A DNA stretch of 64,000 nucleotides. It comes from Actinomadura alba (GTDB lineage Bacteria > Actinomycetota > Actinomycetes > Streptosporangiales > Streptosporangiaceae). A program made the position numbers and the translations under genes. The DNA is taken from contig NZ_JABVEC010000001.1 in assembly GCF_014323705.1 (NCBI RefSeq), positions 434,001 through 498,000 on the forward strand, given 5' to 3'. Positions 4,687-37,640 of this stretch are shown one piece after another (the stretch's first letter is position 1; every line of letters starts with the position of its first letter). Below the pieces are notes generated by a model. The model had not been told where the DNA came from. It was given only the letters and a program-made list of their open reading frames with translations, and made no database searches.

Positions 4687-5484
4687 TCAGTCGCGCCAGC
4701 GCCAGGCGTGGTCGACGGGGCCGATGCCCGAGCCGAGCGGGAAACCACGCTCGATCGCTCCGGTGACGTACTCCTTGGCCTTGCCCACCGCACCCGGCAC
4801 GTCCTCTCCGAGGGCCAGATACGAGGCGGTGGCCGAGGCCAGCGTGCAGCCGGTGCCGTGCGTGTGCAGGTTGTCGTGCCGGGCCGCCGAGAAGTGGTAC
4901 TCACGGGTTCCGTCGAACAGCAGGTCGACCGGCTCGCCCGGCAGGTGACCGCCCTTGACCAGCACCCACCGCGGGCCGAGCGCCCACACCGCCTCGGCGG
5001 CCTCGCGCAGCCCCGACTCGTCGACGACCTTGATCCCGGTGAGCTGCTCGACCTCCCAGAGATTCGGCGTCACCACGGTGGCGACCGGCAGCAGGGCGGT
5101 GCGCACCGCGTCGACGGCGTCGGCGGCGAGCAGCGAGTCGCCGTGCTTGGACACGCCGACGGGGTCGACGACGACCGGCGCCTCGGCGTCCGCGAGGACC
5201 TGCGCCACCGTCTCGACCAGCTCGGCCGAGGCGAGCATGCCGGTCTTGATCGCCTCGGCCCCGATGTCACCTAGCACGGAGTCGAGCTGGGCCCGTACGG
5301 CCTCGGCCGGCAGTTCCCAGTAGCCCTGGACGCCCACGGAGTTCTGCGCCGTCACCGCGGCGATGACGCTCATTCCGTGCACGCCGAGAGCCAGCATCGT
5401 CTTCAGGTCCGCCTGGATCCCGGCACCGCCACCGGAGTCGGATCCGGCCACGGTGAGCACCCGCGGAGGGGTCGGTCGCGCCAT
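4687..5484 (-). CDS. thiD: Hydroxymethylpyrimidine/phosphomethylpyrimidine kinase
   Basis: ThiD phosphorylates HMP and then HMP-phosphate to give HMP-diphosphate, the pyrimidine half of thiamine. At 265 residues it has the family length. Visible motifs are [20 protein letters not shown] at the N-terminus, [12 protein letters not shown] in the middle, [14 protein letters not shown] and the anion-hole motif [12 protein letters not shown] near the C-terminus. The start ATG 5484 has no Shine-Dalgarno; instead TAGGCT stands 7 nt before it, suggesting a leaderless mRNA. thiL lies about 800 nt upstream on the same strand, separated by a CBM2-like gene, so thiamine synthesis genes are near but not in one tight operon. 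No TPP riboswitch would fit in such a short leader. Confidence 0.95.
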
Positions 5485-6272: not shown

Positions 6273-7196
6273 CTAGCGGAAATGATCCCAACCGCCGGTT
6301 GCGTACGCTTCGCCGTCGACGGTCAGACCGGTCCCCTCCGTCACCTGGCCGATCACCCGCCAGGTCTCGGGCAGGGCGACCCCGGCCGGGAACGTGCCCG
6401 CGAACGCGTGGTCCTCTCCCCCGGTCAGCACATGCCGCAGGCCGCGCGCTCCGAGGACGGCGGGCACCGGGAGCGACGACGTGTCCAGATCGATCCGGAC
6501 GCCGCTCGCCGCCGCGACGTGCCCGAGGTCCTGCACCAGACCGTCGCTGACGTCGAGCAGTGCCGTGGCGCCCAACCGCGCCGCCTCGGGACCCGCGTCG
6601 TACGGCGGCAGCGGGCGGCGGTGCGCGGCGATCAGTTCGGCCGGCTCCGTACGCTCGGCGGAGAGCAGTTCCAGCCCGGCGGCGGCGAAGCCGAGCCGGC
6701 CCCGCACCGCCACCCGGTCGCCGGGACGGGCTCCTGAGCGGGTGAGCGGCCGGGCCCCGCCGAGATCACCCAGCGCGGTGACCGCGAGGACGACCAGCGG
6801 AGCCCGTACGACGTCGCCGCCGACCACCGAGGCCCCGACCACGGCGCACTCGTCGCGCAGCCCGTCGGTGAGCTCCTCGGCCCAGGCGACCTCGGTCTCG
6901 GGCGGGGCCGCGAATCCGACCAGCAGCGCCGTCGGGCGCGCCCCCATCGCCGCCACGTCGGCCAGATTCTGCGCCGCCGCCTTCCGCCCCACGTCGTAGG
7001 CGCTGGACCAGTCAGGGCGGAAATGACGGCCCTCGACCAGCAGATCCGACGTGGCGACGACCCGGCCGTCCGGCGCGCGGACGATCGCCGCGTCATCCCC
7101 CGGCCCGAGGTCGACGTCCGGTCCCTGCGTGAGACGCTGTGAAATACGAGCGATTAGTCCGAACTCGCCCAGATCCCCGATCGTGATAGCCCACAC
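6273..7196 (-). CDS. thiL: Thiamine-monophosphate kinase
   Basis: ThiL converts thiamine phosphate to thiamine diphosphate, the last step to the cofactor. The 307-residue protein has the PurM/AIR-synthetase-like marks of the family: [13 protein letters not shown] at the start, [45 protein letters not shown] and [11 protein letters not shown]. The start is uncertain: GTG 7196 directly follows a GGAG and gives the usual N-terminus within a few residues, while longer frames overlap the divergent Lrp-domain gene. A TACCGT box lies about 12 nt before it. Only 60 nt separate thiL from the divergent gene, so the two promoters overlap. Confidence 0.93.
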
Positions 7197-7256
7197 CTCC
7201 GTGAAGACACGGTACGGTGGCCGACGGACGGGACAAACTACGCCCTGGAGGACGTG

Positions 7257-7490
7257 ATGGTGCAGGCCTACATCCTCATCCAGACCGAGGTCGGCAAGGC
7301 CGCGGACGTGGCCCGTGAGATCTCCGGCATCTCCGGTGTCAAGCAGGCGGAGGACGTCACCGGTCCCTATGACGTGATCGTGCGGGCGGAGGCGCACAAT
7401 GTGGATGATCTCGGCAAGCTCGTCGTCGCGCAGATTCAGGGCGTCGACGGCATCACGCGTACTCTCACCTGCCCGATCGTCCATATCTGA
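7257..7490 (+). CDS. Stand-alone Lrp/AsnC ligand-binding (RAM) domain protein
   Basis: A 77-residue protein consisting only of the ligand-binding, oligomerising domain of Lrp/AsnC regulators (YILIQTEVGKAADVAREI, GVKQAEDVTGPYDVIVRAEA). It has no DNA-binding helix-turn-helix, so it cannot act as a classical repressor; such proteins may sense amino acids or modify full-length Lrp proteins, which is inference. ATG 7257 is preferred over GTG 7254 because GGAGG is then 5 nt away. It is divergent from thiL and followed closely by a DUF3515 lipoprotein, a neighbourhood kept in many actinobacteria. Confidence 0.85.
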   Translation: MVQAYILIQTEVGKAADVAREISGISGVKQAEDVTGPYDVIVRAEAHNVDDLGKLVVAQIQGVDGITRTLTCPIVHI

Positions 7491-7525
7491 CTCCACCGTA
7501 CGCAGGGTGCGGTAGGAGTTCCGAG

Positions 7526-7987
7526 ATGCGGAGGGCCGCCGCGGTTCTGACGGTGCTGGCGTTGTCGCCGGCACTGCTGGCGGGCGGCTGCGCGGGTGGC
7601 GCCGTCCAGGTACCCGTGCCCCGCCCGGACGCCGCGACGGCCCGGGTCTGCGAAGGCCTGCGACTGCCGGCCGAACTGCACGGCCAGTCCCGGCGGTCGA
7701 CCGCGCCGAAGTCCCCGCTGATCACCGCGTGGGGCTCCCCCGCGATCGCGGTGCGCTGCGGGGTCGCCCGCCCGTCCGCCATGGTCCCGACGTCGCAGCT
7801 GCTGACGATCAATGGCGTCGACTGGTTCGGGCAGCCCATGGACCGGCCCACGACGTTCACGGCCGTGGGCCGGCAGGCCTACGTCGAGGTCACCGTGCCG
7901 GCCGCCTACGAGCCGGCCGCCGAGGTGCTCAACGAGCTGACCGGCGTGATCAAGACCCTCCGTCCCAAACCCGACGGCGAACTCTGA
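7526..7987 (+). CDS. DUF3515 family lipoprotein
   Basis: A 153-residue exported protein. The N-terminus is a lipoprotein signal: a hydrophobic stretch ending in LLAGGC, with Cys at about residue 22. The body matches the actinobacterial DUF3515 family in size and in the conserved stretch LITAWGSPAIAVRCGVARP, followed by GVDWFGQP. No enzymatic role is known. GGAG stands 8 nt before ATG 7526. It lies 35 nt after the Lrp-domain gene and is probably in the same transcript. In related genomes it is normally followed by ddl, which here lies 27 kb away. Confidence 0.85.
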   Translation: MRRAAAVLTVLALSPALLAGGCAGGAVQVPVPRPDAATARVCEGLRLPAELHGQSRRSTAPKSPLITAWGSPAIAVRCGVARPSAMVPTSQLLTINGVDWFGQPMDRPTTFTAVGRQAYVEVTVPAAYEPAAEVLNELTGVIKTLRPKPDGEL

Positions 7988-8371: not shown

Positions 8372-8449
8372 GCGGCTCTATCCCAGCTGGCAAGAGGAAC
8401 CGTTCTCAGGAAACGGAAGAGCCGGGTTCGAATCCCGGGAGCCGCACCA
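8372..8449 (+). tRNA. Atypical tRNA with Leu anticodon CAG, short variable loop
   Basis: Acceptor arms GCGGCTC (8372-8378) and GAGCCGC pair perfectly and an encoded CCA ends at 8449. The anticodon stem CCGTT/AACGG closes a 7-nt loop CTCAGGA, anticodon CAG at 8407-8409 (codon CTG, Leu). The T arm is perfect: CCGGG, TTCGAAT, CCCGG. Bacterial tRNA-Leu is class II with a long variable arm, but here only five nucleotides (AAGAG) lie between anticodon and T stems. The D arm has a three-pair stem TCC/GGA with a large loop, as in class II tRNAs. It is either a functional non-standard tRNA or a degraded one; the perfect acceptor, anticodon and T stems argue against decay. Confidence 0.75.
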
Positions 8450-8475
8450 TTCCCGTTCCACAACTGATGACCTAT

Positions 8476-8548
8476 GCCCCCGTGGTCCAAATGGCAGAGG
8501 CGCTGGCCCGAGGAGCCAGATGTGCGGGTTCGAATCCCGCCGGGGGTA
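8476..8548 (+). tRNA. Atypical tRNA with Leu anticodon GAG, C33, short variable loop
   Basis: Acceptor GCCCCCG (8476-8482) pairs with CGGGGGT with one G-T pair at the end; discriminator A at 8548, CCA not encoded. The anticodon stem CTGGC/GCCAG closes the loop CCGAGGA, giving anticodon GAG at 8510-8512 (codon CTC, Leu). Position 33, a nearly invariant U, is C. The variable region is only four nucleotides (ATGT), although tRNA-Leu should have a long arm. The D arm, with three pairs and a big loop containing ATGGCAGA, resembles normal tRNA-Leu. The T arm GCGGG, TTCGAAT, CCCGC is intact. It lies 26 nt after the CAG tRNA. Confidence 0.72.
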
Positions 8549-8575
8549 CGAAACGGACTCTCGCGAGTCCGGTGA

Positions 8576-8658
8576 GGGGCGGCGCCGACGTGGGAGAGTC
8601 GGGCTCGGCTGTAAACCGGGTGCCATGTGCTGAGTGGGTTCGAATCCCACCCGCCCCA
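8576..8658 (+). tRNA. tRNA-Tyr-like gene, anticodon GTA
   Basis: Acceptor GGGGCGG (8576-8582) pairs with CCGCCCC; discriminator A at 8658, then CC but no full CCA. The anticodon stem CTCGG/CCGGG closes the loop CTGTAAA, anticodon GTA at 8611-8613 (Tyr). A 13-nt variable region (8621-8633, TGCCATGTGCTGA) fits the class II form expected for bacterial tRNA-Tyr. The T arm GTGGG, TTCGAAT, CCCAC is perfect. The D arm CCGA/TCGG encloses a G-rich loop, and position 8 is C instead of the usual U, so this too departs from the usual tRNA-Tyr. It is the third member of the tandem cluster. Confidence 0.75.
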
Positions 8659-8666
8659 CCGGCGCG

Positions 8667-8685: not shown

Positions 8686-8879
8686 GAATTTCGCGATCTC
8701 GGGCACGACGGCGCCCAAGTGCGCCCGGTCCGCGTGGACTTAGTAGATCATGGTGGTGCGCCGCGCATGTCGTGCCCGCACCGATGGTGCGGATCTGTGG
8801 GGCACGCACGGCTGATGATGTTGCCCTGGTTTCTTCGGCCGGTCTCGCTGACAGCGGCCAACCCCTTCGGAGGCGCTTC

Positions 8880-10136
8880 GTGGTCCCCTTCCAGTTCCCT
8901 GTACCTGGAGAGCCCGTCCCGCACACTCTCGCCCGGCTCAGGGAGATCGGTCCGGTCGTCCCCCTGGAGCTCCCGGGCAATGTCAGCGCCTGGGCGGTGA
9001 CCAACTACGCCGCTCTGGCCGAACTGCTCGCCAACGACAACAAGCTGGTCTCCAGGAACCCCAGGCACTGGTCGGCCCTCCGGAACGGGGAGATTCCCGC
9101 GGACTGGCCGTTGCGCCCGCTCATCGAGGGCGAGCATCTCCAGGTCCTGGACGGCGTCGACCACCGGCGGCTGCGGACGCTGGTATCCCGCGCCTTCACC
9201 GCGTCACGCGTCGAGGCGCTGGCACCCCGGGTCGAAGAGATGGTGACCGATCTCGTCGATGAGGTCGTCGCGGCCGGTGACGGGGTCGACCTGGTCTCCG
9301 CCTTCACCGAGCCGCTGCCGATGTCGGTGATCTGCGAGCTGTACGGCGTGCCCGAACCAGAGCGGCCCCAGCTCCGGGCCTGGGCCAACACGATGATCTC
9401 GCACACCAGCACCGGGGAGCAGACCGCCGCGGCCAACCGTGACATGCTCGCGTACCTGGCCGAGCACGTGGAACGAAAGCGCCGCGACCCGGGAGACGAC
9501 CTCACGACCGGGCTGGTCCGCGCGCAGGACGAGGGCGACCAACTGTCCGGCTCCGAGCTGGTGACCAATCTCTGGCTGATGATCATCGCCGGCCACGAGA
9601 CCACCGTGCACATGCTCGGGCACGCCATCGTGGCGCTGTGCACCCATCCGGAGCAGCGTGCCCTCGCGGTGGCGGAGAACCTCTGGCCGCAGGTGGTGGA
9701 GGAGACCCTCCGCCACCGCACGTCCGTGAAAACCAGCCCGTTCCGGTACGCGATGACGGACGTGAACCTCGCGGGGACGGACATCCCCGCCGGTGACGCG
9801 ATGCTGGTCTGCTACGGAGGAGCGGGCACCGACACCGACCGGTACGGCGAGGACGCGGACCGGTTCGACATCACGCGGGAGGACAAGGGGCACCTGGCCT
9901 TCGGCTACGGCCCGCACTTCTGCATCGGCGCGCCGCTCGCCCGGCTCGAAGGCCGGATCGGTCTCCCGGCACTGTTCAACCGGCTACCCGGTCTGCGACT
10001 GGCCGTCGACGCCGACCACATTCCCTACTCGCCGTCCTTCATCACCTACGGCCCGCTGTCCCTGCCCGTGAATCTCGGCCTTGCCGCGGATCGGACTCCG
10101 GAGCGCGCCGGCCCGAGCCGGTATAGGACCCGGTAG
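8880..10136 (+). CDS. Cytochrome P450 (CYP154-like)
   Basis: A 418-residue haem monooxygenase with all class I bacterial P450 marks: I-helix AGHETT (residues 237-242), K-helix E275-T-L-R278, and haem-ligand loop FGYGPHFCIGAP with Cys348. GTG 8880 is chosen because GGAGG lies 6 nt upstream; the frame is open further back to 8772 but without a ribosome-binding site. The substrate cannot be told from sequence. It is convergent with the conservon P450 at 10245-11507, and a shared hairpin lies between them. In Streptomyces, CYP154 and CYP157 genes often lie together beside conservons, which fits this placement; the subfamily name is inference. Electrons must come from ferredoxins elsewhere. Confidence 0.9.
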   Translation: MVPFQFPVPGEPVPHTLARLREIGPVVPLELPGNVSAWAVTNYAALAELLANDNKLVSRNPRHWSALRNGEIPADWPLRPLIEGEHLQVLDGVDHRRLRTLVSRAFTASRVEALAPRVEEMVTDLVDEVVAAGDGVDLVSAFTEPLPMSVICELYGVPEPERPQLRAWANTMISHTSTGEQTAAANRDMLAYLAEHVERKRRDPGDDLTTGLVRAQDEGDQLSGSELVTNLWLMIIAGHETTVHMLGHAIVALCTHPEQRALAVAENLWPQVVEETLRHRTSVKTSPFRYAMTDVNLAGTDIPAGDAMLVCYGGAGTDTDRYGEDADRFDITREDKGHLAFGYGPHFCIGAPLARLEGRIGLPALFNRLPGLRLAVDADHIPYSPSFITYGPLSLPVNLGLAADRTPERAGPSRYRTR

Positions 10137-10204
10137 AGGACCGGGCCGAAGGCGACCCCGGCACTGTCCGCCGTGGGGGCCGTCGGCCGGCATGACCCAC
10201 GGCA

Positions 10205-10237
10205 CGGATCCCGCCGGATCGGCTCCGGCGGGATCCG
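10205..10237. terminator. Bidirectional terminator between convergent P450 genes
   Basis: A 14-bp perfect stem (CGGATCCCGCCGGA with TCCGGCGGGATCCG) and a 5-nt loop, followed on the plus strand by ACTTTTG. It ends 7 nt before the stop codon of the minus-strand P450 and can serve both transcripts. Confidence 0.8.
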
Positions 10238-10244
10238 ACTTTTG

Positions 10245-11507
10245 TCAGGAGGGGCTGAACGTGACCGGCAGCGTGGACAGGCCGCGTATCTGAAAGGACG
10301 GCCGCCAAACGAGGTCGTCGGCGGCCACCGCCAACGTCACGTCCGGGAGCCGGTCCAGGAGCACCTCGACGGCGGCCTGCGCGATGACCTCGGCGAGCTC
10401 GGGCGCCGGGTGCGGGCACCCGTGCGGGCCATGGCCGAACGCCATATGGGCGTGATTTCCGGCGGACCCGGAGAAGAGGTCGGTCCGCACCTCGGGATCG
10501 GCGTTGGCGCCGGCCAAGCCCAGGATGAGCGCGTCACCGGCCCGGATGTGCTGCCCTCCCAGCTCGGTGCCCTGAGCGGCCCACCGCCCGATACTGTTCT
10601 GGCCGGGAGTGTCCTCCCACAGCACCTCGTTCAACGCCTGGCCGACGCTGCGGCGGCCTCCGGAGAGATTCACGGAGAACCGGTCATCGGTCAGCATCAG
10701 CCGCAGAGTGTTCCCGATCCAGTTGGCAGTGGGATCCTGCCCCGCGACCATCAGCAACAGCAGATCCTGGATCAGCTCGTCGTCGCTGAGCCCGGCGGGG
10801 TGCGCCAGCATACGAGAGGGCACATCCGGACCGGGGTGGGCCCGCTTGCTCTCCAGCAGCCGCCCCATCGTGGCGGCGAACCGCTGATGGGCCTCGGCGG
10901 CACCCTCGCCGCCGTCCAACGCCGCGCTCACATCCCGTACTAGGGCCGGCGTCTCGGACCCGGGCATACCGAACAGCCCGGCGACGGCCACCAGCGGCAT
11001 CCGGTGGGCGTACTCCCGCATCAGGTCGACCTCACCGCGGCCCGCGAACGCGTCGATCAGTGAGTCGGCGATCCGCTCGCATCGAGCCTTGAGCTCGAAC
11101 TGGTCGACGGCGGCGAGGGCATCACTGATGGCCTCGGCCCGCCGCTGGTGCTCGGCCCCCTCGGTGAACAGCACTGAAGGTTGATAACCGACGAACGCCA
11201 TGAGGGGCCAGTCGGGCGGGATCTGATCCCAGGCGTTCCACCGGCGGGAGTCGCGGGCGAAGAGCTGCGGATTGCCGAGCATGTAGTGGAGCTCTCGGTA
11301 CCCGATCACGAGCCACGCGGGGACGTTGCCCTCGAGCAGAACCGGGACGACCGGCCCATGCTGCCGCCTCATCTCCCGGTACAACTCGGCCGGGTTCTCC
11401 TGGTAACGCGGTCCGTACAGCGGCATGGCATTCGCGTGGGCCGGACACCCCGGGGGCGGCGTCGCTCCAGAGGACGACTGCGAGGCGTCGAACGACTGCT
11501 GGGTCAT
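10245..11507 (-). CDS. Conservon cytochrome P450 lacking ExxR (CYP157-like)
   Basis: A 420-residue P450-fold protein. The haem loop is FGHGPHGCPHPAP with Cys364 present. The K-helix motif reads E294-V-L-W297, so the Arg that is nearly universal in P450s is Trp, and the I-helix reads VAGQDPT instead of AGxET. Absence of ExxR, with an E-x-x-L-W-like pattern, is known for the Streptomyces CYP157 family, which also sits in conservons. ATG 11507 overlaps the stop of the GTPase gene as ATGA, so translation is coupled. It is the last gene of the conservon. Whether it is a working monooxygenase, or a haem sensor or scaffold for the signalling proteins, cannot be told. Confidence 0.88.
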   Translation of the reverse strand: MTQQSFDASQSSSGATPPPGCPAHANAMPLYGPRYQENPAELYREMRRQHGPVVPVLLEGNVPAWLVIGYRELHYMLGNPQLFARDSRRWNAWDQIPPDWPLMAFVGYQPSVLFTEGAEHQRRAEAISDALAAVDQFELKARCERIADSLIDAFAGRGEVDLMREYAHRMPLVAVAGLFGMPGSETPALVRDVSAALDGGEGAAEAHQRFAATMGRLLESKRAHPGPDVPSRMLAHPAGLSDDELIQDLLLLMVAGQDPTANWIGNTLRLMLTDDRFSVNLSGGRRSVGQALNEVLWEDTPGQNSIGRWAAQGTELGGQHIRAGDALILGLAGANADPEVRTDLFSGSAGNHAHMAFGHGPHGCPHPAPELAEVIAQAAVEVLLDRLPDVTLAVAADDLVWRPSFQIRGLSTLPVTFSPS

Positions 11508-12112
11508 GGCGTGCTCTCTTGGGTGTCGGACAAGGCGTAGAGGTGGTTCACGAGCGTGATCAGCACGGTTTTGCTGGAGTCGCGCCTGCGGGCATCACAG
11601 TGGATCAATGGGATGCCATCGGACAGCGAGAGCGCCTCACGTACGTTCTCCAGGCCGTGCACGGGTCCGCCGAAGTCGTTGAGAGCGACGATGAACGGCG
11701 TCTTGTGGTGTTCGAGACGGTCGATGGCGTACCAGGAGTCCTCCACCCGCCGGGTGTCCACGAGGACGACCGCGCCGAGGGTTCCCGAGAACAGCCGATC
11801 CCACAAGAACCAGAACCGCTGCTGTCCCGGAGCGCCGAACAGATAGAGGACCATCTCGTCGTTCAGGCTGATGCGCCCGAAGTCGAAGGCGACAGTGGTC
11901 GTCGTCTTGTTCTGTACGCCCTCCGGGTCGTCGATCCCGACGCCCGCCCGGGTCATGGTCTCCTCGGTGCTCAGCGGCCGGATCTCACTGACCGAGCGGA
12001 CCATGGTCGTCTTGCCCACGCCGAAACCGCCGACTATCACGATCTTGAGACCGTTGGCGGCCGTGCTCCGCAGTGGCGTGCGGGTGGCTTGCTCAGAGCT
12101 TTTCAAGTCCAA
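11504..12112 (-). CDS. cvnD: Conservon small GTPase (CvnD)
   Basis: A 202-residue Ras-like ATP/GTP-binding protein. The P-loop GGFGVGKTT occupies residues 28-36, a Thr-rich switch TTTTVAFDFG follows, then the G3 region LYLFGAPGQQRFWFLWD. The base-specificity motif is LNDF, not the classical NKxD. Conservon GTPases are thought to cycle with the roadblock protein and report to the membrane kinase-like protein, by analogy with eukaryotic G-protein systems. The start is uncertain: TTG 12112, overlapping cvnC by 20 nt, or TTG 12106; no ATG or GTG occurs before the P-loop. Its stop overlaps the P450 start as ATGA. Confidence 0.9.
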   Translation of the reverse strand: MDLKSSEQATRTPLRSTAANGLKIVIVGGFGVGKTTMVRSVSEIRPLSTEETMTRAGVGIDDPEGVQNKTTTTVAFDFGRISLNDEMVLYLFGAPGQQRFWFLWDRLFSGTLGAVVLVDTRRVEDSWYAIDRLEHHKTPFIVALNDFGGPVHGLENVREALSLSDGIPLIHCDARRRDSSKTVLITLVNHLYALSDTQESTP

Positions 12113-12452
12113 CGAGCACCTGCTTCAGGATTTCTCGATCGGGCAGTTGCGCCCAGGCGGGGGTCGATGACGGATGGCGTGCGGTGATCCGGCCGGTGTC
12201 CAGGAGGTCGCACAGCAAGATCTTCACCACGCCCACCGGCAGGTCCAGCTCCGATGAGATCTCTACGACCGCCGTCGGCGTACGGCACATGCGGAGGATC
12301 TTGACGTGCTCAGACTGCATTCCCGGCGTGGGATCACATTCGCTGACGATCAGAGAGACGATGTCGATGGTGCTCTCGTCCGCCCGGCTGCGCCCGCCGG
12401 TGACGACGTACAGCCGGTCCGGGCCCTCCCTGTCGACTGGCCGTGAGGTCAT
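12093..12452 (-). CDS. cvnC: DUF742 conservon protein (CvnC)
   Basis: A 119-residue DUF742 protein. Family marks are RLYVVTGGRS near residue 14, the region TAVVEISSELDLPVGVVKIL, which looks like a winged helix, and the closing LLCDLLDTGRITAR. In S. coelicolor conservons the equivalent protein is the third component. Its ATG overlaps the cvnB stop as ATGA, and its own end overlaps the cvnD start, so the three are translationally coupled. Its biochemical role is unknown; DNA or protein binding is inferred from the predicted fold. Confidence 0.9.
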   Translation of the reverse strand: MTSRPVDREGPDRLYVVTGGRSRADESTIDIVSLIVSECDPTPGMQSEHVKILRMCRTPTAVVEISSELDLPVGVVKILLCDLLDTGRITARHPSSTPAWAQLPDREILKQVLVGLEKL

Positions 12453-12868
12453 GGCAATTGGCTGCTCTGCTGAGGCCGCCGCGGCTGGGCGACCAGGTAC
12501 TCACCGAGCTGCTCGACCAACTCGTGCATGTTGTGTCCGATGACGCCGACGTCGGCGTCATCGGTCGCCACGACGGCGAGGTGGGCCCCTTCACCGGCCT
12601 CCACGATGAACATGAGCCCGCCGTGGAACTCGGTCATGGACTGCCGCAGCCCTCCGGTGCCGTCACCGAACTCGGCGGACGCGCCGTAGGAGAGGCTTTG
12701 GATGCCCGAGGCTATGGCGGCCAGCTGGTCCGCCTGGTCCACGGTCAGCCCGGACGAGTGGCAGAGTTTGAGGCCGTCCTTCGACAGCACCAAAGCGTGC
12801 CGGGTCTCCGGCGTCCGCTCGAGGAGATTCTCGAGCAACCAGTCGAGGTCGCGCTGTGAGGGCTTCAT
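12449..12868 (-). CDS. cvnB: Roadblock/LC7 domain protein (CvnB)
   Basis: A 139-residue roadblock/LC7 (MglB-type) protein, a fold that acts as GTPase-activating partner or scaffold for small GTPases. The sequence DLDWLLENLLERTPETRHAL, then LVLSKDGL, and GGLMFIVEAGEGAHLAVVA are typical. ATG 12868 gives the normal family length; a longer frame to 12925 lacks a ribosome-binding site. It ends in an ATGA overlap with cvnC. With CvnD it is expected to form the switch of the conservon, receiving input from the membrane protein encoded just upstream. Confidence 0.9.
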   Translation of the reverse strand: MKPSQRDLDWLLENLLERTPETRHALVLSKDGLKLCHSSGLTVDQADQLAAIASGIQSLSYGASAEFGDGTGGLRQSMTEFHGGLMFIVEAGEGAHLAVVATDDADVGVIGHNMHELVEQLGEYLVAQPRRPQQSSQLP

Positions 12869-12983
12869 CGAGTTCTCGGGGCGGTGCTCCGGGCGTCGGT
12901 GCCGGGGCGCGGCCCCTGTCTCCAATCCTTTGTCGGGTCATCCGGTGTCGTGTCATCCGGGCCGGCGGGAAGAGCCGACATCA

Positions 12984-14432
12984 TCAGGTGTCGTCCGCCG
13001 GGGGCGAGGACTTGGCACCGCTTGCGGGCCCGCCACGGCCGCTCTGGCGGAAGGCGCGGAATCGCTCCGCGGCTTCGGCGGCGGACTTCGCGGGCCTGGA
13101 AATCGGCTCGGCCGGTGGCGGGGACGCCGCCGCCAGCGTCTGGCCCTTCGGGCGCTTCGGCAGCCCGGGAGCCTTGCCCTCGGCGACGGGGACGCCGCTC
13201 TCGGCGGGCGAGGCCGCCTGAAGGGTCGGGCCGGTCTCGGTCGGCGCGGCCGCCGCGCCGACCGAGACCGTCGGGCGGGGCTCGGCTGCCGCCGCCGGGG
13301 TGGACGGGCGCACCGCCCGTGACATCGCAGGTGCGGCGTCCGGCGCGGCCTGCGTGATCAGCTTGCGTGGGATCATGACCACGACTCCCGTCCCTCCGCG
13401 CGAGGACGGCCTGAAGGAAACGGTCAGACCGTGCTTGCGGGCCAGGCAGCCCACCACCGCGAGGCCCAACCTCGTGCCGGACAACGTCATCAGGTCCAGC
13501 GGCTCGGACGACACGGCCCGCTCGGCGCGCCGCAGCGCGGTGGCGCTCATGGTGAGGCCGGCGTCCTCGATCGTGACCACGATGCCCGCATGGACCTCTT
13601 CGACGTACACGTGGGCCTTCTCGGACGGAGGCGAGAAGCGCGTCGCGTTGTCCATCAGCTCGGCCAGCGCGTGCATGACGCCTTCGGCGGCGTAGCCCGC
13701 GATCGCGACCAGGCTGGTCGAGTGCACCCGCACCCGCTGGTAGGCGCTGATCCGGCCGACCGCGCCGCGCAGGATGCTCTCCATCATGATCGGTTTGGTC
13801 CAGCGCCGGCCGGAACGGGCACCGGTGAGCACGGCGACGCTGTCGGCCAGCCGGCCCACCTGCGCGGTGCTGTGGTCCAGTCTCAGCAGGTCGCCGAGAA
13901 CCTCTTCGTCATGCCGGTCCTCCATCTCACGCAGATCGGCGAGCATGCTGGTGGCCAGGGCCTGGACGCGGCCGACGGCGTTCGCCGAGGCCGCCATCGC
14001 AGCCGCGCGCATGCGCTCTCCCTTGCCGATCTCTTCGGCCAGGGTGTGGAGGATGCGTTGCTGGGCGCGTCCGGCGGGCCGCGTGATCTCAGCCAGGGCG
14101 GTGTCCGCCGATGCCCCGTCGCGCAGCAGCTTCACCAGGGCGGGCAGCGTCTTGTCGGCGAGCCGGGCCAGCTCCGCGTCCGTCGCCGCGACGCGGGTGC
14201 GTAGCTGGCGTGCGGTCTGGAATCCGTAGGTCCCGGCGGTCACCGCGGCGCAGAGGATGAGTGCGGCCATACCGGTGAGCACGGCGATGAGACCTCGGTT
14301 CGCGGCGGGTGCGGCGGCCGTCGCCAACAGGCATGCGCCACCGGTGATGACCGCCGCGGCCACCAGGGCGAACAGTGCCTGCTGGAGCGGCGGGGGCTCT
14401 TCCCGACGGCGGGTGGGAACGTGTGCTGACAT
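12984..14432 (-). CDS. cvnA: Conservon sensor histidine kinase-like protein (CvnA)
   Basis: A 482-residue membrane protein, first gene of the conservon. Two membrane helices lie near residues 19-42 and 48-69 with a very short loop between them, so there is almost no external sensor. A coiled linker and a GHKL ATPase domain follow: N-box ELMDNATRFSPP, G1-like IEDAGLTM and GTRLGLAVVGCLARKHG. The last 120 residues are low-complexity Pro/Ala-rich. No clear phospho-acceptor His region is visible, as is usual for CvnA. ATG 14432 has GAGGA 8 nt upstream and is preferred to the TTG just before it. A 115-nt gap separates it from cvnB. Confidence 0.88.
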   Translation of the reverse strand: MSAHVPTRRREEPPPLQQALFALVAAAVITGGACLLATAAAPAANRGLIAVLTGMAALILCAAVTAGTYGFQTARQLRTRVAATDAELARLADKTLPALVKLLRDGASADTALAEITRPAGRAQQRILHTLAEEIGKGERMRAAAMAASANAVGRVQALATSMLADLREMEDRHDEEVLGDLLRLDHSTAQVGRLADSVAVLTGARSGRRWTKPIMMESILRGAVGRISAYQRVRVHSTSLVAIAGYAAEGVMHALAELMDNATRFSPPSEKAHVYVEEVHAGIVVTIEDAGLTMSATALRRAERAVSSEPLDLMTLSGTRLGLAVVGCLARKHGLTVSFRPSSRGGTGVVVMIPRKLITQAAPDAAPAMSRAVRPSTPAAAAEPRPTVSVGAAAAPTETGPTLQAASPAESGVPVAEGKAPGLPKRPKGQTLAAASPPPAEPISRPAKSAAEAAERFRAFRQSGRGGPASGAKSSPPADDT

Positions 14433-14799
14433 CAATCAAGTCCTCGTCGGCGGCGGATGGAGGCGGGAACCGGGTCGAGCGGAGCCGCGGGCCGGTTCAC
14501 CGTGCGGCGAGACGCCGACGGACTCACGGGACGTCCGGCGAATCCGCGCGCGTGGGGGCTCGCCGCAGGATCCGTAGGTGATCCCCGGTGGCACAGGGTG
14601 GCACGGAGCGGGGAGAACGGTCTGAGACGGACGAGCGGGGCACCTGGTGCCGACTCGGGCGGTCAAGTGTCTTGATCTCGATCCCCTCGCCTTGGCCGCG
14701 ACTTCCGGTGCCGGCTGTGGAAGATCCCCGGGCCGCCCCCAGAACGGCGATCGTAGTGGCCCTGCCACTTAACGCGCTGGGATTCGTCGTATTTTGCCG
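14433..14799. other. Intergenic region upstream of the conservon
   Basis: These 367 nt between cvnA and the EamA transporter gene, both on the minus strand, should hold the conservon promoter and the end of the transporter leader is not involved. I see no supported gene: the plus-strand frame at 14588-14818 has no ribosome-binding site and no familiar sequence. No strong hairpin stands out. Confidence 0.5.
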
Positions 14800-35344: not shown

Positions 35345-36451
35345 TCAGCGGAGGCCGATCGGGCGGGACAGGGCGGTCTGGATCAGCCGGTCGACCAGCG
35401 CCGGGTAGTCGAGACCACTCGCCGCCCACATCTTCGGGAACGCCGAGGCCGGGGTGAAGCCCGGCATCGTGTTGATCTCGTTGAGCAGCAGCCGGCCGTC
35501 ACTGGTGTAGAAGAAATCGACCCGGGCGAGCCCTTCGCAGCCGAGCGCGTCGAACGCCCGCACCGCAAGCCGCCGGACCTCCTCGATCACCTCGGCCGGC
35601 AGCCTCGGCGGGATGTCGAGCCGGAGCCCGTCATCGAGATACTTCGCCTCGAAGTCATAGAAATCATGCCCGTCCGCCACGTTGACCTCGGACGGAAGGC
35701 TCGCCTCGGCAGGGTCGTCGCCGAGGCCCTGCAGCACGCCGCATTCGATCTCGCGCCCGTCGATCGCCGCCTCGACGATCACCTTCGGGTCGTGCTCCCG
35801 TGCCGCCTCGACCGCCGCGTCCAGGTCGCCCTCGGAGTCGACCTTGCTGATGCCCATGCTCGACCCGGCCCGGGCGGGCTTGACGAACACCGGCAGGCCG
35901 AGTTCCTTGATCTCGTCGATCACGCGCTTGCGCTCTCGTCGCCAGTCGCGCTCGGTCACCGCGACGTACGGCCCGACCGGCAGCCCCTGCCCAGCCCAGA
36001 TGACCTTCATGAAGCCCTTGTCCATGCCCGCAGCGCTGGCCAGCACCCCGGCGCCGACGTAACGGACGCCGACCAGGTCGAGCAGCCCCTGGATGGTGCC
36101 GTCCTCCCCGTACGGGCCGTGCAACAGGGGCAGGACCACATCGACCTCGCCCAGGGTGCGCGGCACCCGGCCGGGCTCGACCACCATGAGGCCACGGCCG
36201 GCCGGGTCGAACGGGAGGGCGAGCGCGGCGCCGGCGGAGTCGACCTCCGGCAGCTTGCCATCCTGGATGGACAGCCGCTGGTCCTCGGGCGCCAGCACCC
36301 AGCGGCCGTCGGTGGCGATGCCGATCGGCACGATCTCGTAGCGATCACGGTCGATCGCCGCCATGACGCTGCCGGCGGTGAGACAGGAGATGGCGTGCTC
36401 GGAGCTGCGCCCGCCGAAGACCACGGCAACGCGAATCTTGGACTCGGACAT
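35345..36451 (-). CDS. ddl: D-alanine--D-alanine ligase
   Basis: Ddl joins two D-Ala with ATP for the peptidoglycan stem. The 368-residue protein shows the ATP-grasp marks: VAVVFGGRSSEHAISCLTAG, LPLLHGPYGEDGTIQGLL, AGMDKGFMK, PVFVKPARAGSSMGISKV, EAAIDGREIECGVL and metal-binding RVDFFYTSDGRLLLNEINTM with PGFTPASAFPKM. The residue before MG in the omega-loop region and the GSSMGI motif are those of ordinary D-Ala-D-Ala enzymes; no vancomycin-resistance-type change is evident. ATG 36451 is chosen; upstream in-frame codons lack support. gpsA and plsC follow upstream on the same strand, the usual actinobacterial order. Confidence 0.95.
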   Translation of the reverse strand: MSESKIRVAVVFGGRSSEHAISCLTAGSVMAAIDRDRYEIVPIGIATDGRWVLAPEDQRLSIQDGKLPEVDSAGAALALPFDPAGRGLMVVEPGRVPRTLGEVDVVLPLLHGPYGEDGTIQGLLDLVGVRYVGAGVLASAAGMDKGFMKVIWAGQGLPVGPYVAVTERDWRRERKRVIDEIKELGLPVFVKPARAGSSMGISKVDSEGDLDAAVEAAREHDPKVIVEAAIDGREIECGVLQGLGDDPAEASLPSEVNVADGHDFYDFEAKYLDDGLRLDIPPRLPAEVIEEVRRLAVRAFDALGCEGLARVDFFYTSDGRLLLNEINTMPGFTPASAFPKMWAASGLDYPALVDRLIQTALSRPIGLR

Positions 36452-36611
36452 GGTGACCGACCTTACCGGCGATCGGCACCGATCGCCCAAGCGCGAACAT
36501 TACGGAACCCAGCGGGTGCAGAAGTGCACGCATCGTTCGCCGGTCCTTCGGCCGGGCCTCCCACCCCAACGCTCGCGGGCATCGCGCCGGCCGCCCCGTA
36601 CCGGCCGCGAC

Positions 36612-37640
36612 TCACTCGTCCACGCCGTAGCGCTCCGGTTTGGGCGAGCGCGACATCAGGAGGTAGCCGGCTTCAGAGATCGGCATCCCGTGGTGCATCA
36701 CCGCGGCGACCACCTCCGTGATCGGCATCTCCACGCTGTGCTTGCGGGCGAGCTCGAGCACGGCCTCGGACGACTTGACTCCCTCAGCCGTCTGCCTGGT
36801 CACCGCCGTGACCTGCTCCAGTGTCATACCCCGGCCGAGGTTCTCACCGAAGGTGCGGTTGCGGGAAAGCGGCGAACTGCAGGTCGCCACGAGATCACCG
36901 AGACCCGCCAGGCCCGCGAACGTGTGCTGGTCGGCGCCGAGCGCCGTGCCCAGGCGGGCGATCTCGGCGAGCCCGCGGGTGATGAGCATCGCCCGCGTGC
37001 TGTCGCCGAAGCCCAGCCCGGCCGCGATGCCGACGCACAGCGCGATGACGTTCTTCACCGCGCCGCCCAGCTCACACCCGATGACATCGGTGTTGGTGTA
37101 GACCCGGAAGTACGGGGTCATGCACGCGGCCTGCAGCCGCCGCGCGGTCTCGGCGTCGGTGCAGGCCGCCACCGAGGCCGCCGGCTGGCGCGCGGCGATC
37201 TCACGGGCGAAGTTCGGCCCGCTGATCACGGCGACGCGCTCCTGGGGCACGTCGGCGACCTCCTGGATGACCTCGGACATGCGACGGCAGGTGCCGAGCT
37301 CGATGCCCTTCATGAGGCTGACCAGCACGGCGCTCTCGGGCAGCAGCGGCTTCCACGCCGAGAGGTTCTCGCGCAGCGTCTGCGAGGGCACGGCCAGCAC
37401 GACGTAGTCGACGCCCTGGAGCGCCTCGGCCGGGTCGAGCGTCGCGCGCATCGTCTCGGGAAGCTCTACGCCCGGCAGGTAGTCGGCGTTCTCCCGCCCC
37501 TCGTTGATCGCCTTGACGATCTCGGGACGGCGGCCCCAGAGCCTGACCTCACCGCCCGCGTCGCACAGGACCTTGGCGAACACGGTGCCGAACGACCCCG
37601 ACCCCATGACCGCCGCTCTGTTGATGGTTGTGCGCGTCAC
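36612..37640 (-). CDS. gpsA: Glycerol-3-phosphate dehydrogenase [NAD(P)+]
   Basis: GpsA reduces dihydroxyacetone phosphate to glycerol-3-phosphate for phospholipids. The 342-residue protein has the NAD fold GSGSFGTVFA at the N-terminus, VVLAVPSQTLRENL, ISGPNFAREIA, the catalytic Lys in GAVKNVIAL, and GLAGLGDLVATCSSPLSRNR. GTG 37640 overlaps the plsC stop by 4 nt, coupling it to the acyltransferase that uses its product line, so lipid precursor genes are translated together. Confidence 0.96.
   Translation of the reverse strand: MTRTTINRAAVMGSGSFGTVFAKVLCDAGGEVRLWGRRPEIVKAINEGRENADYLPGVELPETMRATLDPAEALQGVDYVVLAVPSQTLRENLSAWKPLLPESAVLVSLMKGIELGTCRRMSEVIQEVADVPQERVAVISGPNFAREIAARQPAASVAACTDAETARRLQAACMTPYFRVYTNTDVIGCELGGAVKNVIALCVGIAAGLGFGDSTRAMLITRGLAEIARLGTALGADQHTFAGLAGLGDLVATCSSPLSRNRTFGENLGRGMTLEQVTAVTRQTAEGVKSSEAVLELARKHSVEMPITEVVAAVMHHGMPISEAGYLLMSRSPKPERYGVDE

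Follow-up and report, generated by a model that had tools for sequence, protein, structure and literature searches.

The window, a stretch of 64,000 nt of the Actinomadura alba genome, carries three adjacent tRNA genes (Table 1). Their lengths are 75 nt for Leu(CAG), 73 nt for Leu(GAG) and 83 nt for Tyr(GTA). The preliminary description had noted that both leucine tRNAs lack the long variable arm, and this was confirmed: the variable loops are AAGAG (5 nt) in Leu(CAG) and ATGT (4 nt) in Leu(GAG), short of the 10 nt or more of a canonical class II tRNA. That of Tyr(GTA) has 13 nt. The C at position 33 of one leucine tRNA, namely Leu(GAG), and the identity of the third gene as a Tyr(GTA) tRNA with C at position 8 were also found as described. 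Acceptor, anticodon and T stems had been reported as intact in all three genes; every position of these stems is indeed paired, and the same holds for the D stem. Neither broken stems nor a lack of conservation, the marks of a pseudogene, was seen in the window tRNAs.

Table 1. Coordinates of the three tRNA genes and of the markers of their locus in the window. R1 is the covariance model of short-arm tRNA-Leu.
Feature	Position	Strand	Remarks
thiD-like gene	4687..5484	-	left-hand marker beside DUF3515
thiL-like gene	6273..7574	-	left-hand marker beside DUF3515
DUF3515 protein gene	7526..7987	+	left-hand locus marker; cluster c2 in 6/21 compared stretches
Short-variable-arm (class I) tRNA-Leu(CAG)	8372..8446	+	CCA encoded at 8447-8449; ARAGORN (8372-8449, including CCA); 82.7 bits with R1
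Short-variable-arm (class I) tRNA-Leu(GAG)	8476..8548	+	C33; full E. coli-type leucine identity set; ARAGORN (8476-8549); 82.9 bits with R1
Divergent long-arm tRNA-Tyr(GTA)	8576..8658	+	C8, G1-C72, A73; ARAGORN (8576-8660)
D-alanine--D-alanine ligase gene (ddl)	35345..36490	-	right-hand locus marker; conserved context
Glycerol-3-phosphate dehydrogenase gene (gpsA)	36612..37640	-	right-hand locus marker; conserved context

A 3-bp D stem with C13.A22 as a mismatch, a feature absent from the preliminary description, is shared by both leucine genes, and both have A73. The leucine identity set (A73, U8-A14, A15-U48, G18G19 and A20a) is complete in Leu(GAG). Leu(CAG) has G15/G48 in place of the leucine-type A15-U48 and so lacks one identity pair. 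The tyrosine gene shares with bacterial tRNA-Tyr the GUA anticodon, G1-C72, A73 and the long variable arm, but differs from it in having C8 instead of U8. With the generic Rfam tRNA model (gathering score 29) the genes scored 45.9 bits for Leu(CAG), 51.6 for Leu(GAG) and 17.8 for Tyr, so that the tyrosine gene is overlooked by this model. A search directly upstream of the cluster for a sigma-70-like promoter gave no hit, with none expected. Two known classes of unusual tRNA genes were ruled out: allo-tRNAs (8/4 or 9/3) by the 7/5 acceptor and T stems of all three genes, and tRNA array units (at least 20 clustered tRNA genes) by the size of the cluster.

The preliminary description had proposed a search for orthologous clusters in related genomes. 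A DNA search over 150 genomes of the family gave some match in 113 genomes, mostly short T-arm matches. When the best 30 loci were read with ARAGORN, Leu(CAG), Leu(GAG) and Tyr were found together in ten, the window and nine others. One further locus (L049) carried Leu(CAG) and Tyr, and another (L047) carried Tyr alone, with its leucine pair about 38 kb away (L076). The window genus was sampled with three genomes: G001 carried the triplet at 91% identity, and G002 gave short T-arm matches only. Between the window genome (G000) and G001, 75/75 positions of Leu(CAG), 71/73 of Leu(GAG) and 72/83 of Tyr were identical, and the 200-bp flanks were scarcely alignable. Stem pairing was kept in 240/240 pairs of the CAG orthologues (12 genes), 220/220 of the GAG orthologues (11 genes) and 251/252 of the Tyr orthologues (12 genes), 711/712 in total; the exception was one broken T-stem pair in the G001 Tyr gene. 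The earlier view that these are not decaying pseudogenes was borne out by the preserved stems and by the unchanged Leu(CAG) gene.

The genomic context of the triplet was also conserved. Outside the window genus, all 11 stretches of the triplet type (L068-L078, from 10 genomes) had ddl/gpsA or DUF3515/thiL/thiD genes like those of the window, and none of nine stretches of other arrangement (L079-L087) had them. Synteny of the triplet locus extended over five genera including the window genus (g1, g38, g49, g66 and g67), and this shared ddl-thiL neighbourhood indicates inheritance of the triplet at a single locus. A P450/conservon-like block and further genes now lie between the triplet and ddl in the window. 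The region at 8772-14435 contains a plus-strand P450 gene facing a second P450 gene, and genes for an ATP_bind_1 protein and a histidine-kinase-like ATPase; we take this set to be a conservon from its appearance. In one of the stretches of other arrangement (G103, L086:7889-10278), a class I Leu CAG/GAG pair adjoins tyrS, with a methylpurine-DNA glycosylase gene in between.

The two window leucine tRNAs are members of a coherent family of short-variable-arm tRNA-Leu in Actinomycetes. An alignment of members with the anticodons CAG, GAG, AAG, CAA, UAA and UAG gave one structure, in which 539/540 cells (99.8%) were paired; none of 500 shuffles equalled this share. Two-sided changes were seen in 17 of the 20 pairs, with a covariation score of 0.80 against 0.20 in shuffles. 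We built covariance models for short-arm, class I Leu (R1) and for long-arm, class II Leu (R2). In six genomes of the family (G000, G119, G086, G103, G100 and G041), R1 gave at least 76 bits to class I Leu and at most 66 to other tRNAs, and R2 gave at least 83 bits to class II Leu and at most 57 to the rest. The best non-member in the window genome scored 65.4 bits with R1; the scores of the two window genes (Table 1) are partly circular, both genes being in the R1 training alignment. An R1 match at E <= 1e-13 was obtained in 276 of 296 genomes of the class; as Arg tRNAs score up to 70.6 bits in G266, this count can only be a maximum. A pattern scan of named genomes found class I Leu(UAA) in at least 118 stretches; among the 80 listed were Streptosporangium, Nonomuraea, Nocardiopsis, Thermobifida, Actinomadura, Pseudonocardia and Geodermatophilaceae. 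The pattern searches for UAR tRNAs had a fixed D loop and A38 as conditions, so that some genes escaped them, for example Leu(UAG) of the window genome, which has T as base 38. These searches served as a source of sequences only, never as a basis for absence.

C33 in Leu(GAG) and C8 in Tyr are expected to weaken decoding or folding, a point against a working triplet. Among class I Leu genes, C33 was present in 14/21 with GAG and 13/80 with UAA, and in 0/28 with CAG, 0/17 with CAA, 0/12 with UAG and 0/2 with AAG; other tRNAs had it in 5/218. C8 was present in 12/12 Tyr genes of the triplet type and in 18 of the 20 distinct Tyr genes collected. Read by eye, the variable arm of the triplet-type Tyr has only about two pairs.

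The tRNA complement of the window genome was read with ARAGORN from 76 matches to the tRNA model (Table 2). Both window leucine anticodons and tyrosine are already served by ordinary tRNAs in this genome, including an ordinary tRNA-Tyr (L102); the triplet may therefore be dispensable in translation. Leu(UAG) and both Leu(UAA) genes were seen in the short-arm form only. Compared with all other tRNAs of the same genome, Leu(CAG) came closest to class I Leu(UAG) (identity 0.66) and Leu(GAG) to class I Leu(UAA) (0.71); the highest value for Tyr was 0.65. The two class I Leu(UAA) genes (L103 and L110) are isoforms with U33 and C33, and both forms were also present in G119. More divergent second tRNAs occur elsewhere in the window genome (L090, L101, L106 and L111), in groups of Ala(TGC), Arg(GCG) and Trp(CCA); Glu(TTC), Met(CAT) and Ser(CGA); Met(CAT) and Ser(GCT); and a tRNA read as Cys(ACA).

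Table 2. Leucine tRNA anticodons in six genomes of the family, read gene by gene (five assemblies on one contig, G000 in 100).
Genome	Long-arm (class II)	Short-arm (class I)	Remarks
G000 (window)	CAG, GAG, CAA	CAG, GAG, UAG, UAA x2	
G119	CAG, GAG, UAG	CAG, GAG, CAA, UAA x2	
G086	CAG, GAG, UAG	CAG, GAG, CAA, UAA	
G103	CAG, GAG	CAG, GAG, CAA, UAG	no UAA seen in either class
G100	CAG, GAG, CAA, UAG	AAG, CAG, UAA	
G041	CAG, GAG	UAA, UAG, CAA	

Within these six genomes, class I provided the sole UAA tRNA found in five, the sole CAA in four and the sole UAG in three. The window's kind, with one anticodon in both classes, was seen for CAG in five genomes and for GAG in four. We also read nine genomes from other families of the class. 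Class I UAA and CAA were both present in G303, G417, G196, G173, G266 and G185, class I UAA only in G238, and class I CAA only in G166 and G254, while class I CAG or GAG was found in none of the nine. G166 and G254 are probably Streptomyces-like, and the class II UAA tRNA of G166 is presumably similar to bldA. Over the 15 actinomycete genomes, no UAA, CAA or UAG anticodon turned up in both classes of one genome, in a tally that leaves unread one class II match in each of the two f18 genomes (70.9 and 61.6 bits) and a 54.2-bit R2 match in G238. In the f18 genomes, one 85-nt class II gene was named Pro(agg) by ARAGORN. Short-arm UAA, CAA and UAG tRNAs thus replace their long-arm isoacceptors in these 15 genomes, and in most genomes read, no UUA/UUG decoder other than class I was found, and in some no other CUA decoder.

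To see what these codons mean, we used leuS and tyrS alignments from 13 and 12 genomes, in which frames were chosen by mutual similarity and columns with at least 80% of one residue were counted. TTA fell on leucine columns in 8/8 cases and TTG in 32/38, the other six lying on other residues; CTA fell six times on leucine and once on isoleucine. In G173, where class I provides both the UAA and the CAA tRNA and is the sole reader of TTA and TTG, leucine columns held 8/8 TTA and 13/14 TTG codons, and in G196 they held 12/15 TTG codons. The suggestion that the window tRNAs misread leucine codons is therefore not supported: their relatives are the only UUA/UUG decoders found, and these codons lie at conserved leucines.

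Exactly one LeuRS scored over the family cut-off in each of the 13 genomes, which rules out a second LeuRS dedicated to the unusual tRNAs. One TyrRS was over the cut-off in 12 of the 13 genomes and none in the window genome; with a completeness of 93.5% for that assembly, the absence is probably an assembly gap. E. coli LeuRS depends on A73, A15-U48, G18G19, A20a and D/T-loop contacts, and tRNA-Leu variants without the variable arm stay active with it, according to the available part of an identity review (PMC9976931). The full set of U8, A14, A15-U48, G18G19, A20a and A73 was present in 36/37 long-arm Leu sequences and in 147 of 160 distinct short-arm Leu sequences, a biased rather than independent count since most of the 160 were found by the family's own models and patterns. 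Elsewhere the full set occurred in 14/144 other short-arm tRNAs (six each of Lys and Ala, one each of Met and Pro), 0/17 Ser and 1/20 Tyr. With 147/160 against 14/144 and, as indirect evidence, a single LeuRS in each genome, the proposal that an enzyme other than LeuRS charges the window leucine tRNAs found no support.

We consider it probable that the triplet consists of three working tRNAs, a class I leucine pair leucylated by the ordinary LeuRS and a second tRNA-Tyr charged by TyrRS, which together form an auxiliary set of isoacceptors. The LeuRS would read A73 and the core of D loop and T loop (U8-A14, G18G19, A20a and usually A15-U48), not the variable arm; the G15/G48 of Leu(CAG), with one identity pair missing, counts against its charging with leucine. 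Once leucylated, the two tRNAs would decode CUG and CUC/CUU as leucine beside the long-arm isoacceptors, and the tyrosine gene would supply a second, divergent tRNA for TyrRS. As a set retained by vertical descent at the ddl-thiL locus, the three would be kin to the divergent tRNAs of actinobacterial arrays.

The same set might instead be held in reserve for times when host tRNAs are cut or blocked by anticodon nucleases or tRNA-modifying toxins, still carrying leucine and tyrosine and, by their altered structure, offering a poor target. We regard this as rather unlikely. It would fit the duplication of an ordinary isoacceptor by each triplet gene in a very different sequence, and the presence of related tRNAs in a 34-tRNA plasmid array of Nonomuraea. 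In the available parts of the sources, phage tRNAs are mentioned as a counter to tRNA degradation (PMC10865867), and the toxin MenT3 senses the variable arm of tRNA-Ser (PMC11541572). However, many actinomycetes rely on this same family for their everyday decoding of UUA/UUG, so the short arm itself is no reserve feature, and no toxin gene consistently adjoined the cluster in the loci compared.

It is very unlikely that the triplet is what remains of a mobile tRNA array in decay, without present function. The C8 of Tyr and the class I CAG/AAG tRNAs are array-like features that match the plasmid array, and the broken T-stem pair in the G001 Tyr gene could be read as decay, but the other 711 stem pairs, a Leu(CAG) gene unchanged between strongly diverged flanks and the synteny in five genera all speak against it. 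We give very little credence to a non-translational role in which the charged tRNAs would feed a tRNA-dependent biosynthetic enzyme, for example in a cyclodipeptide-type pathway using leucine and tyrosine. P450 genes do lie near the Tyr gene in the window, L072, L073 and L085, and the window P450 weakly matches a cyclodipeptide-associated P450 family (116 bits, cut-off 500). This P450, however, adjoins the second P450 and the ATP_bind_1/histidine-kinase-like set; neighbours at other loci are radical SAM, SDR or TetR genes; and among the proteins scanned there was no cyclodipeptide synthase or other enzyme using aminoacyl-tRNA, nor one consistently beside the triplet. It is equally implausible that another synthetase charges both leucine tRNAs and places a different amino acid at CUG/CUC: the missing long arm and the G15/G48 of Leu(CAG) would allow it, and redundancy would permit a minor mistranslating tRNA, but the leucine identity set, the relatives that are sole UUR decoders found, the closest tRNAs of the same genome being class I Leu and no other isotype, and a Codetta screen whose available text reports bacterial sense reassignments of arginine codons only (PMC8629427) all oppose it.

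The favoured reading of leucylated, auxiliary short-arm tRNAs can be compared with known systems. The window genes share with canonical bacterial class II tRNA-Leu the leucine anticodon, A73, U8-A14, G18G19 and A20a, the A15-U48 pair in the GAG gene, and a 3-bp D stem with a 13.22 mismatch. They differ from it in C13.A22, where class II has a purine at 13, and in the long arm, whose place is taken by a variable loop of 4-5 nt. Animal mitochondrial tRNA-Leu is leucylated without a long variable arm, but is organellar and has a degenerate core (PMC9976931, available part), in contrast to the intact core and four stems of the window tRNAs. A 2023 identity review states, in its available text, that every tRNA-Leu except the animal mitochondrial one is long-armed (PMC9976931). 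The genomes examined here contradict this rule, and the long variable arm, which the preliminary description had taken to define bacterial tRNA-Leu, does not do so in actinobacteria.

Short-arm tRNA-Leu is already in print for a mycobacterial tRNA cluster (PMC6582537) and, by implication, for M. tuberculosis, in which long loops are ascribed to tRNA-Leu-2, 3 and 5 only (PMC11541572, available part). The available text of PMC6582537 describes a short-loop Leu(TAG) of the same architecture as the window genes, also lying within a cluster in which all tRNAs are unlike the core copies. Three tRNAs of that cluster were expressed, more so in stationary phase, which by analogy would support auxiliary, expressed isoacceptors. 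As far as the available parts go, both papers mention the short loops in passing, with no class-wide family and no CAG or GAG members noted. In the open-licence literature we found no description of class-wide replacement or of short-arm CAG or GAG members, the two mycobacterial mentions being the only ones met.

In genomes that we take to be mycobacteria-like, microbacteria-like and streamlined freshwater-type actinobacteria, short-arm tRNA-Leu is the sole UUA/UUG decoder found. This makes them a natural test of how LeuRS recognizes its tRNA, and a warning against annotation rules that call the isotype from the variable arm. They also offer a series of replacements in which single anticodons pass from the long-arm to the short-arm form, and the triplet adds a conserved case of two structural classes for the same codon in one cell. 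We suggest, with little confidence, that two structural lineages of leucine tRNA run on one LeuRS in Actinomycetes and that in the window's family the short-arm lineage spread from UUR to CUG/CUC and, together with C33 and C8 variants, gave rise to a conserved second-line translation set for special conditions or survival of tRNA-attacking toxins.

Actinobacterial tRNA array units (at least 20 genes) likewise contain divergent isoacceptors that are redundant with host tRNAs (PMC5966550, available part), but the cluster in the window consists of three genes, and its chromosomal locus is conserved by vertical descent. On the Nonomuraea sp. NBC_00507 plasmid NZ_CP107854, an array of 34 tRNA genes spans about 4.7 kb (L446:319-5049); short-arm Leu(CAG), short-arm Leu(AAG) and a Tyr gene bearing C8 are among them. 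The divergent tRNAs of this array cover nearly all amino acids, mostly without listed genes in PLSDB. Small array-like groups were also found on chromosomes (L053, L054, L060 and L066). Position 8 is often not U in array-type Gly, Trp, Thr and Ser tRNAs: A was present in 7/11 Gly and 2/4 Trp, and various bases in Ser and Thr.

In the available part of PMC10865867, phage Gaia integrates at attB-11 in the tRNA-Leu-CAA gene of M. smegmatis through an 8-bp core, does not rebuild the host tRNA and brings its own copy. The Gaia tRNA-Leu gene is long-armed (84 nt, with C74). In Omega-type phages (Thibault was checked), 54-55 bases are 96.4% identical to positions 21-75 of the short-arm Leu(CAA) of G196, which is consistent with a short-arm host gene. 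If the host gene is short-armed, Gaia would be a case of a long-arm tRNA replacing a short-arm one in a living cell. Short-arm tRNA-Leu genes were also seen in Streptomyces phage Francob (L443), in Lactobacillus phage Bacchae (L444), a phage of a non-actinobacterial host, and in Thermobifida phage P318 (L445), where the gene is unannotated.
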